A DNA stretch of 64,000 nt. It comes from Sedimentitalea nanhaiensis DSM 24252 (GTDB lineage: Bacteria > Pseudomonadota > Alphaproteobacteria > Rhodobacterales > Rhodobacteraceae). The notes under the pieces are model-generated. The model had not been told where the DNA came from, did no database searches, and saw nothing but the letters and a program-made list of their open reading frames with translations. The position numbers and the translations under genes are program-made. The stretch is taken from positions 3,118,868-3,182,867 of the forward strand of contig NZ_KI421509.1 in NCBI RefSeq assembly GCF_000473225.1. The letters are read 5' to 3'. This document shows, piece by piece, positions 49,086 to 52,501 of the stretch. How positions within the stretch are numbered: position 1 is the first letter of the stretch; each line of letters starts with the position of its first letter.

Positions 49086-50111
49086 TCAGACCGTGGGGCC
49101 GACCATGCCGACAATGTCATAGGTCTTGCGCAGGATCGGCGCGGTGATCTCGCGGGCGCGCTGTGCGCCGGTGGTCAGGATACGGTCGATTTCGGCGGGA
49201 TCGTTCATCAACCGGGCCATTTCCTGCGAGATCGGCGACATGCGCGCCACCGCCAGATCGGCCAGCGCCGGTTTGAAGGTGCCGAACTGTTTGCCGCCAT
49301 AGGTTGCCAGCACCTCGGCTTCGGTACAATCGGCCAGCGCCGCGTAGATATTGACCAGATTGCGGGCCTCGGGGCGGTCCTTGAGCTCTTCGAAAGTGTC
49401 GGGCAGGGGCTCGGGGTCGGTCTTGGCCTTGCGGATTTTTTTGGCGATGGTGTCGGCGTCATCGGTCAGGTTGATGCGGCTCATGTCCGAGGGGTCGGAT
49501 TTGCTCATCTTTTTCAGCCCGTCGCGCAGGCTCATGACCCGGGTGGCGGTGCCTTCGATCACCGGTTCGGTCAGCGGAAAGAAGTCGACGCCGTAATCGT
49601 GGTTGAACTTGGTGGCGATGTCGCGGGTCAGTTCCAGGTGCTGTTTCTGATCCTCGCCCACCGGGACATGGGTGGCGTGATAGACCAGAATATCGGCGGC
49701 CATCAGCGACGGATAGGCATACAGGCCCAGGCTGGCCTTTTCGGCGTTTTTGCCGGCCTTGTCCTTGAACTGGGTCATGCGGTTCATCCACCCCATACGC
49801 GCGACACAGTTGAACACCCAGGCCAATTGCGCGTGCTCGGGCACCTGGCTTTGGTTGATCAGGACGGATTTCTGCGGGTCGATGCCGCTGGCGATGAACC
49901 CGGCGCAGAGCTCGCGGGTGCTGTGGCGCAGCGCCTGGGGGTCTTGCCAGACCGTGATCGCATGCAGGTCGACCATGCAATAGATCGATTCGACGCCCTG
50001 GTTCTGGGCATCGGCAAAGCGTTTGAGCGCCCCCAGGTAATTGCCCAGGTGCAGGTCGCCCGATGGCTGGATGCCCGAAAACACGCGGGGCGTGAAGGGG
50101 GTGGTGGACAT
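49086..50111 (-). CDS. trpS: Tryptophanyl-tRNA synthetase
   Basis: A 341-residue class I synthetase with the HIGH-equivalent GDLHLGN (16-22) after FSGIQPSG, and the KMSKS loop at [15 protein letters not shown]. It charges tRNA-Trp. ATG 50111 gives [13 protein letters not shown]. It is divergent from the rhomboid-like gene and downstream in the order glnD, murJ, trpS on the minus strand. Confidence 0.96.
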
Positions 50112-50211
50112 GGTGGCAACTCCCGGCTGGAAATATCGGTCCGCCTCGCTTACCCATGGGGCCAAGGGGCGTCAACAGGCACCGACACCAGGCCGCAAGG
50201 AGACCGGGCAG

Positions 50212-50898
50212 ATGAGCAATGAAGACAGCATTCCGGCGGTGAATCCGCTGCCGCCGGTGGTGGCGGCGCTATTTCTGATCATCATGGCCATCGAGGTGGT
50301 GTTTCAACTGGGCGCGCGCGGGATGATCGGCGGGCCGGTGGCGGTGGGCTGGCGGCTGGAGGCGATTCAGTCCTATGCGTTTTCATCGCAGATCTTTGAC
50401 TGGATGATCGAGACCAACCGCTGGCCGCTGGAGCATGTATTCCGGTTTGTCAGCTATCCGTTTGTGCATGCAACCTTTACCCATGCGCTGTTTGTCGGGG
50501 TGTTCCTGCTGGCGATGGGAAAGATGGTGGCCGAGGTATTTGGCAATCTGGCGTTTCTGTTGATCTTTGTGCTGTCGGGCATTGGCGGTGCCCTGGCCTA
50601 TGCGCTGGTTCTGAACGATCCGGTCCCGCTGATCGGGGGCTTTCCGCCCGTCTATGGGCTGATCGGGGCGTTTACCTATATGCTGTGGCGGTCGTTGTCG
50701 CGGGTGGGGGCGAACCAGTCGCGTGCCTTTACGCTGATCAGTTTCCTGATGGGGATCCAGCTGATCTTCGGGCTGCTGTTCGGGGCGGATAACGACTGGG
50801 TGGCGGACCTTGCGGGGTTTGTCACCGGGTTCGGTCTCTCATTCTTTGTCTCGCCCGGGGGCTGGGCGCGGATACGCGGGCGTATCCGGCACGATTGA
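50212..50898 (+). CDS. Rhomboid-like membrane protein lacking catalytic residues
   Basis: A 228-residue protein with about six membrane helices and rhomboid-like spacing. SYPFVHATFTHALFVGVFLL matches the TM2 region, a Gly-rich helix follows, and DWVADLAGFVTGFGLSFF matches the last helix. The catalytic GxSG serine is replaced (GGFPPVYG, 142-149) and the TM6 histidine is absent (VADLAG), as is the oxyanion Asn. It is therefore a pseudoprotease, perhaps binding membrane partners. AAGGAG precedes ATG 50212. It converges with murJ across seven bases. Confidence 0.75.
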   Translation: MSNEDSIPAVNPLPPVVAALFLIIMAIEVVFQLGARGMIGGPVAVGWRLEAIQSYAFSSQIFDWMIETNRWPLEHVFRFVSYPFVHATFTHALFVGVFLLAMGKMVAEVFGNLAFLLIFVLSGIGGALAYALVLNDPVPLIGGFPPVYGLIGAFTYMLWRSLSRVGANQSRAFTLISFLMGIQLIFGLLFGADNDWVADLAGFVTGFGLSFFVSPGGWARIRGRIRHD

Positions 50899-50905
50899 AC
50901 CGGGA

Positions 50906-52501
50906 TCAGCGGCGGCGGCGCGCGGCCCCCCGAAACTCGGTCAGGCGGAACGCGCCGATGATCTGTCCCGCGCCGAAATAGACCATGATGCCGACAGCGA
51001 CTAGGGCGGCCAGCGCCAGATACCGCCAGCCCGGCGTGATCAGTGCGGGGGCCAGCGCCCATGCGACGAGCCACAGGGTCGCGCCCATGATCGCGGACGC
51101 CGCACAGATGCGCCACAAGCGGGTGCGGAACCGGTCATCGAACCGCGCGACGATGCCCATGCCCGAGGTGCCGCGCGCCAGTTGCACCACCATGGTCCAG
51201 GCCGCGACGGTGGTGCCGATGGCGGCGCCTAAATAGCCAACCAGATAGGCCATAGTGACCGCAACGACGATATTGACGACCATTGAAACAACCGCAAAGC
51301 GGAACGGGGTTCGGGTATCTTCGCGGGCAAAATACAGCGGTTGCAGCACTTTTTGCAGCACAAAGGCAGGCAGACCCAGCCCGTAGATGGCCACCGCAAG
51401 CGCCGTTGCGGCGCTGTCTGTGGCGTCAAACGCGCCGCGTTGAAACAGCACCGAGATCAACGGCAGCGGGATGACCACCAGCGCCACGGCCGACGGGACG
51501 GTCAGCGCCAGCGAGACCTCGCCCGCGCGGCTGAGCGCATGACGCGCGCCGTCGTCGTCTCGCGCGGCCAGGCGGCGCGACAGATCCGGCAGCAGGACCA
51601 CTCCCACCGCGATGCCGACCACGCCCAGGGGCAGTTGATAAAGCCGGTCGGCATAGGACAGCCAGGCGATGGCACCGTCATAGAAGCTGGCGACCTGACG
51701 CCCCACCAGCAGGTTGATCTGTACCACGCCGCCCGCCAGCATCGCGGGCAGCGCGATCATCGCGAGACGTTTCAGATCCGGGGTCAGGCGCGGCGATTGC
51801 AGGCGGATGCGATACCCCGAACGGGCGGCGGCGGCCCACAACAGGGCCAGTTGGGCCACCCCTGCGATCAGCACGCCCCAGACCAGAACGGTGCCATGAT
51901 GCAGCCCGGTGCGGGCCGCGCCGCTGCCGGTCTCGACCTGCATCATCCCGCCCAGGACACCGGATTCCGCCAGCAGCATCGCGCCGATCAGAATGATATT
52001 GAGCAACACCGGTGCGGCGGCGGCGGCGGCAAAGCGCCCGGTGGCGTTCAGCACGCCGGACAGCAGTGCGGCCAGTGAAATGAACAGGATATAGGGAAAG
52101 GCGATACGGCCGAAGAAGACCGCCAGATCGAACCGCGCGTCGCCGACAAATCCGCTGGCCATCGCCAGCACCAGCCACGGCATGAACACCTGCGCCACCA
52201 GGGTGAACCCGATCAGCAGGGTTCCCAGCGCGGCAAAGGCGTCGTTGGCAAATTTCTCCGGCGCGTCGGCGGTTTCCAGTTTCTTGGAAAACAACGGGAT
52301 GAAGGCGGTGTTGAACGCGCCCTCGGCAAAGAAGCGGCGAAACATGTTGGGCAGGCTGAAGGCGATCAGAAACGCTTCGGCCACCGGCCCGGTGCCCAGC
52401 CAGCCGGCAATCAGGATGTCGCGCACAAAGCCCAGCACCCGGCTGAGCAGGGTCCAGACCCCGACGGTGAGAAAGCCGGACATCAACCGGATCGGTTTCA
52501 T
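50906..52501 (-). CDS. murJ: Lipid II flippase MurJ
   Basis: A 531-residue MATE/MOP-superfamily protein with about 14 helices. The N-terminus SGFLTVGVWTLLSRVLGFVR, LPNMFRRFFAEGAFNTAFIP and REDTRTPFRFAVVSM are typical of MurJ. It flips lipid II across the inner membrane for peptidoglycan synthesis. It ends in a basic tail. It lies 173 bases downstream of glnD on the same strand; I see nothing in that gap. Confidence 0.96.
   Translation of the reverse strand: MKPIRLMSGFLTVGVWTLLSRVLGFVRDILIAGWLGTGPVAEAFLIAFSLPNMFRRFFAEGAFNTAFIPLFSKKLETADAPEKFANDAFAALGTLLIGFTLVAQVFMPWLVLAMASGFVGDARFDLAVFFGRIAFPYILFISLAALLSGVLNATGRFAAAAAAPVLLNIILIGAMLLAESGVLGGMMQVETGSGAARTGLHHGTVLVWGVLIAGVAQLALLWAAAARSGYRIRLQSPRLTPDLKRLAMIALPAMLAGGVVQINLLVGRQVASFYDGAIAWLSYADRLYQLPLGVVGIAVGVVLLPDLSRRLAARDDDGARHALSRAGEVSLALTVPSAVALVVIPLPLISVLFQRGAFDATDSAATALAVAIYGLGLPAFVLQKVLQPLYFAREDTRTPFRFAVVSMVVNIVVAVTMAYLVGYLGAAIGTTVAAWTMVVQLARGTSGMGIVARFDDRFRTRLWRICAASAIMGATLWLVAWALAPALITPGWRYLALAALVAVGIMVYFGAGQIIGAFRLTEFRGAARRRR

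Follow-up and report, generated by a model that had tools for sequence, protein, structure and literature searches.

A conserved rhomboid-family protein without catalytic residues between trpS and murJ in the Rhodobacteraceae: a possible membrane-protein adaptor

Rhomboid pseudoproteases are represented mainly by eukaryotic examples, the iRhoms and the Derlins. iRhoms carry sizeable extra domains, a yeast Derlin requires the WR motif, and Derlins use a cytosolic SHP box to bring in their ATPase (PMC12615303). Bacterial rhomboids serve quality control, acting on orphan membrane proteins (PMC7232013), and even without catalytic activity YqgP of B. subtilis delivers MgtE to FtsH, a behavior that the authors of that work liken to that of Derlins (PMC7231995). 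This adaptor role of YqgP requires an unobstructed active site, and the same paper treats the origin of rhomboid pseudoproteases from proteases as an open question (PMC7231995). The catalytic residues are present in all mycobacterial rhomboids, according to Kateete 2010 (PMC2989971). Judged by title and abstract, none of the matches listed describes a bacterial rhomboid subfamily without the catalytic dyad (subscription literature lay outside the scope of the search), and among the matches listed for the Rhodobacteraceae the word "rhomboid" is not mentioned.

The window analyzed here, a stretch of 64,000 nucleotides from Sedimentitalea nanhaiensis DSM 24252, contains a gene for such a protein (Table 1). 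An earlier note, made from the letters of this DNA alone, had proposed that its product has a rhomboid fold, with structure prediction as a check, and the analysis agrees with that proposal. The protein matches the Pfam Rhomboid family at 71.4 bits, against a curated cut-off of 22.6. An AlphaFold2 model made from an 81-row alignment (mean pLDDT 82.2, pTM 0.76) finds its best structure matches in the crystal structures of GlpG (VIA, Z 19.5 over 190 residues; GlpG entries, Z 17-19.5), followed by iRhom1 (Z 18.2) and the human Derlin complex (Z 10.4). By sequence only, the matches among solved structures are iRhom1, iRhom2, and then H. influenzae GlpG, all of them weak (E 0.0045-0.02). The superfamily motifs, WR after TM1 and GxxxG in TM6, are also present: Arg48 and Gly206 are found in 137/137 orthologue rows and Gly202 in 126/137. 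The protein falls below both the GlpG and the rhombosortase cut-offs of NCBIfam. It belongs to the rhomboid superfamily but, by the residues that define them, not to the rhomboid proteases.

Table 1. Features of the pseudo-rhomboid gene and its neighbors, in window coordinates
Feature	Coordinates	Strand	Basis
Rhomboid pseudoprotease gene, 228 aa	50212..50898	+	ORF (ATG at 50212; stop 50896-50898); Pfam PF01694, E 1.2e-19; predicted model and fold match
Ribosome-binding site AAGGAG	50197..50202	+	Sequence reading
W47-R48 codons, WR motif after TM1 (loop L1)	50350..50355	+	Arg48 in 137/137, Trp47 in 130/133 rows
TM2 segment H86-V95; His pair kept here, Val95 replaces oxyanion Asn	50467..50496	+	Asn95 in 0/137 pseudo vs 27/27 active-type rows
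TM4 segment G142-G149 (GGFPPVYG); Phe144 for catalytic Ser, Pro145 for Gly	50635..50658	+	137-row alignment
TM6 segment W196-F203 (WVADLAGF); Asp199 for catalytic His	50797..50820	+	D/E at 199 in 131/137, His in 0
C-terminal tail PGGWARIRGRIRHD, predicted cytoplasmic basic helix	50854..50895	+	Tail comparison and low-confidence model helix
trpS, divergent neighbor	49086..50111	-	TIGR00233; divergent upstream in 111/112 orthologue loci
Likely trpS promoter (TTGACG, 17 bp, TAAGCG)	50147..50175	-	Consensus of 25/112 loci; promoter call by eye
murJ, convergent neighbor	50906..52501	-	TIGR01695; convergent downstream in 104/112 orthologue loci

The residues needed for rhomboid catalysis are replaced, as the earlier note had read from the TM4 segment, TM6, and the oxyanion position: the nucleophilic Ser by Phe144, the His by Asp199, and the oxyanion Asn by Val95. 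In GlpG numbering, Phe144 is the equivalent of Ser201, Pro145 of Gly202, Asp199 of His254, Val95 of Asn154, and Tyr148 of Tyr205. The same note had suggested checking whether the loss is uniform among orthologues. These were drawn from 60 relatives, 80 named genome records, and weak-scoring genomes of larger samples, giving 137 rows, 135 of them distinct (there are two pairs of identical sequence); from an earlier set of 113 rows, L032 (an active paralogue above the score cut-off) and L029 (an in-frame TGA) were removed, and L205 repeats L041. Across these rows the dyad loss is old and nearly uniform. Ser stands at position 144 in one row, His at 199 and Asn at 95 in none, and Ser and His occur together in 0/137. 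What replaces them is conserved: position 144 is F in 92 rows, Y in 33, M in 4, G in 3, W in 2, and T, D, or S in one each (aromatic in 127/137), Pro145 is found in 128/137, and position 199 is D in 110 rows, E in 21, R in 3, and A, S, or C in one each (acidic in 131/137). Glu28 and Arg48 are invariant. In the active-type relatives of the same family, 8 encoded beside trpS and 19 elsewhere, His86, His91, Asn95, Ser144, Gly145, and His199 are all present in 27/27. The sole row with Ser144 (L203, from genome G597; GGSAASFG) has Cys199 and no oxyanion Asn95; its Ser looks like a secondary change, since this position is occupied by Gly, Tyr, or the like in those other members of the genus that were read. 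A search for other half-dyad intermediates among the weakest-scoring orthologues found none.

Could the protein still be a protease that uses another nucleophile or base? Two TM2 histidines, H86 and H91, do remain in the window protein, but across the rows H86 is kept in 106/137 and H91 in 68/137, and both Ser and Asn are gone, so that continued proteolysis by such a route is extremely improbable. A dyad located elsewhere in the protein was considered and rejected: a search of the window gene (L133) for another GxSG or AH motif found none, and conservation of the TM2 histidines is lacking. By alignment and predicted model, then, the window protein is almost certainly a rhomboid pseudoprotease.

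The gene is under purifying selection, with dN/dS values of 0.016-0.186 in 18 pairs (dS > 1 in three). Chance resemblance and a decaying gene were each rejected on the Pfam match, the fold, the uniformity, and dN/dS; the loss shared by 137 orthologue rows, together with these ratios, indicates more than chance or decay. A profile built from 29 orthologues matches 383 of 390 genomes of the order at E <= 6.5e-38, a count made by score with most sequences not read singly, and in a one-per-genus sample the pseudo gene is present in 32/37 family genomes. Outside the family the profile finds the pseudo type in 0/237 genomes. There, matches at E <= 1e-10 occur in 29/237 genomes, and the strongest of them (3.6e-19) is weaker than the window genome's own active paralogue; among the 13 of these matches that were read, Ser and His are kept in 13/13 (one, L176, has Ala for the Gly after Ser). 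The nearest named record is from Sedimentitalea arenosa, at 81% identity. Seven genomes of the order lie below the profile threshold. Three of them (G167, G198, and G283) have an active-type rhomboid beside trpS instead; three (G577, G641, and G598) have an unlinked active paralogue only; and the seventh, the 2.6 Mb genome G288, has a decayed pseudo-rhomboid remnant adjoining trpS (L179), while G570 and G645 of the same genus give profile scores like those of intact orthologues. Genome G033 also has no pseudo gene and is placed among pseudo-bearers in the TrpS tree, which argues that it lost the gene. Since the gene is missing or decayed in G288, G033, G577, G641, and G598, it is not essential everywhere. 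A literature search for a transposon-screen phenotype of the pseudo gene found none (supplements were outside its scope).

Two public records deserve separate mention. A contig titled Nocardioides marinus, an actinobacterium (L125, JAHVJD010000011.1), has a Rhodobacteraceae-type locus of trpS, pseudo-rhomboid, and murJ, with 65% identity at the protein level; a labelling error or contamination of the assembly is the probable cause. The other record (L243, CP038202.1) is Paracoccus ferrooxidans pFER4, a 1.46 Mb replicon classed as a plasmid, which carries trpS, the pseudo-rhomboid (GGYPAVYG, WIAEIAGF), murJ, and the PII uridylyltransferase gene side by side; its annotation calls the orthologue a rhomboid family intramembrane serine protease.

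The position described in the earlier note, between trpS and murJ, divergent from the former and convergent with the latter, holds for the window and for most of the 112 orthologue loci. The one exception to divergent trpS is L041. Other genes occupy the usual place of murJ in five loci (L009, L011, L012, L108, and L111), murJ is turned round in L089, the contig stops at L080, and the 1.1 kb read beyond L040 contains no murJ. In L009 and L012 the downstream gene resembles the phospholipase D superfamily by its motif. The intergenic region contains a strongly conserved promoter-like pair that is directed at trpS. A regulatory site for the pseudo gene was sought in this conserved block and rejected, as the block looks like the promoter and ribosome-binding site of trpS.

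Outside the family, murJ stands in tandem directly before trpS in 23/28 trpS loci, and a rhomboid lies within 1.5 kb of trpS in 0/28. Within the family, G012 and G021, the first branches of the TrpS tree, also have murJ-trpS without a rhomboid gene. These loci suggest that the rhomboid gene entered an older murJ-trpS pair. They also bear on the idea that the protein works with MurJ, the lipid II flippase, or regulates it, for which murJ as convergent neighbor in 104 of the loci might speak. Because murJ and trpS were neighbors before the rhomboid arrived, the link is not supported. Moreover, murJ is displaced or turned round in the six loci listed above, it is kept in 9/9 tested genomes without the pseudo gene, and the convergent genes form no operon and provide no co-transcription. 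A MurJ-specific role is thus very unlikely. The earlier note, pointing to pseudo-rhomboids that act as chaperones in other systems, had raised a regulatory role for an envelope protein; a chaperone-like or adaptor role is still the best reading, by analogy, and a role specific to MurJ is not supported.

Two genera, g110 and g121, offer a view of what may have preceded the pseudo gene. In all five genomes of g110 (G167, G283, G560, G561, and G562) and in three of the four of g121 (G198, G563, and G565; G564, 66% complete, gave no match), the rhomboid beside trpS is of the active type. All eight of these linked genes were read, have the full dyad, and are divergent from trpS, and murJ is convergent downstream in four of the loci (L159, L160, L191, and L192). 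Like the pseudo type, they share the address and the invariant Glu28 and Arg48 (8/8); unlike it, they have His86, His91, Asn95, Ser144, and His199 in 8/8 and no basic tail starting with PGG. The earlier note had set orthologues with a Ser/His dyad against its own reading, and genes with the full dyad do occur at the same address, while the window protein is still without one. Their dyad points to what the window protein was derived from and restores no activity to it.

The phylogenetic evidence leaves several histories standing. Pseudo rows form one clade (support 99 in a 49-row tree and 100/98 in a tree with 26 pseudo rows). The TrpS tree was made from 69 of 96 available rows, leaving out 12 named pseudo rows and all outgroup rows beyond the first 12. 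In this tree, the 50 rows left once g110 has split off, all pseudo-bearers among them, hold together at 99/98, and g121 groups with two pseudo rows, L027 and L137, at a weak support of 89/49. Because this placement is weak, the TrpS tree fits alike a single loss with an early g121, two losses, or a replacement in g121. In the rhomboid gene tree the linked active rows group with unlinked active paralogues (99/94) and not with the pseudo clade, and the AU test rejects neither pseudo plus linked (p 0.226) nor pseudo plus paralogue (p 0.225). The orthology of the linked active genes therefore rests on position. The most economical reading of these data, which do not prove it, is conversion from active to pseudo at a fixed address. 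In that case, an active rhomboid gene would have been inserted between the already adjacent murJ and trpS early in the history of the family. Ser, His, and the oxyanion Asn would have been lost, and a basic C-terminal tail acquired, in the ancestor shared by most of its members. The full scenario, a single conversion at the base of most Rhodobacteraceae with gain of the tail, followed by lineage-wide use as a dedicated Derlin-like adaptor while g110 and g121 keep the enzyme form, is rather doubtful as a whole.

The tail is a further mark of the pseudo type. It starts with PG in 129/137 rows and with PGG in 114/137, has a median length of 14 aa, and has a median net charge of +3. Among active-type rhomboids PG is found in 3/27 (3/8 linked, with PGG in 0/8; the 19 unlinked rows have neither); for some of the tails compared, the row had been trimmed 20-30 residues past the profile match. 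The AlphaFold model places a helix at 217-227 with low confidence, and with GlpG topology assumed, the tail would face the cytoplasm. The tail, PGGWARIRGRIRHD, shows no evident likeness to the Derlin SHP box; a different bacterial partner motif is still conceivable.

The retained fold and WR loop, the lost chemistry, the conserved replacements, and the new tail fit a client-binding adaptor or holdase. Membrane-protein clients would be recognized through the parts that are retained, namely the WR loop, the TM2-TM5 side, and the fold, and would be held uncut or passed to a partner on the cytoplasmic face. That partner would most plausibly be FtsH, proposed by analogy, or a different quality-control factor in contact with the new tail, and the protein would then be a functional bacterial counterpart of Derlin, or of YqgP in its adaptor role. 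Clients probably bind elsewhere than in the catalytic pocket, because a bulky aromatic replaces Ser, whereas YqgP needs an open site; this speaks against a close copy of YqgP. The mechanism itself, adaptor or holdase, is drawn from analogy and remains tentative, a little short of even odds. To the whole explanation, in which an inner-membrane rhomboid pseudoprotease with a gained tail binds clients and serves membrane-protein quality control as an adaptor, we assign a probability of roughly 0.42.

Two other functions have to be weighed against the adaptor. The protein might regulate the active rhomboids of the cell, by competing for substrates or by forming mixed complexes. GxSG and AH motifs are present in three more rhomboids of the S. 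nanhaiensis genome (L131, L132, and L134), and Drosophila iRhoms inhibit rhomboid signalling (PMC3149277). A further candidate rhomboid of this genome, L135, lies at the Pfam cut-off of 22.6 bits. The most similar unlinked active paralogue, however, is patchy, with a second match at E <= 0.001 in part of the sampled genomes, while the pseudo type is near universal, which makes such regulation improbable. Alternatively, the conserved acid at 199 and the aromatic at 144 might belong to a site rebuilt for a new activity other than proteolysis, for instance the handling of a lipid or ligand. The conservation of the replacements (D/E199, F/Y/W144, and Pro145) is what a rebuilt site would show, and not random change. 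But in genus g64 and some others, Gly, Met, Arg, Ala, Ser, or Cys has come to stand at positions 144 and 199; 11/137 rows depart at one or both while the gene stays, so that neither residue is strictly needed. In addition, no transporter fold match stands out (AmtB, Z about 4). A rebuilt site therefore has a similarly low likelihood.

The locus provides a bacterial pseudoprotease clade together with apparent active forms. Because these counterparts share its genomic address, the before and after forms can be compared, and could be swapped, in relatives that are genetically tractable and not pathogenic. The change from enzyme to non-enzyme, for which a few relatives keep a seemingly working protease at the same spot, is thus open to direct study. 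At least one public record annotates the pseudo-rhomboid as an active serine protease.

Compared with known systems, the protein is closest in structure to GlpG of E. coli and H. influenzae, with which it shares the six-helix rhomboid core (Z up to 19.5), the WR after TM1, and the GxxxG of TM6; unlike GlpG, it has no catalytic Ser, His, or oxyanion Asn. With the iRhoms (RHBDF1 and RHBDF2) it shares a rhomboid fold without a dyad (Z 18.2), and they are its best sequence matches among solved structures (E 0.0045). However, at 228 aa, with 14 residues before TM1 in the model (first helix at residue 15), then a short loop and the next helices from 42, it lacks both the long cytosolic N-terminus and the large TM1-TM2 domain of iRhoms. 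Derlins (Der1, Dfm1, and Derlin-1) likewise have a rhomboid fold without a dyad (Z 10.4 and 8.3) and a cytoplasmic tail as a possible partner site; the Derlin profile gave no Pfam match at E <= 1, where Rhomboid and one spurious family were the only matches and HMMER filters may drop very weak ones. By the features tested, the protein is neither an iRhom nor a Derlin and works, at most, like them. YqgP of B. subtilis is alike in being a rhomboid of a bacterium that can act as an adaptor without proteolysis (PMC7231995), the role that is proposed by analogy for the pseudo-rhomboid, and differs in keeping its dyad, in having an N-terminal metal-binding domain, and in needing an open active site.
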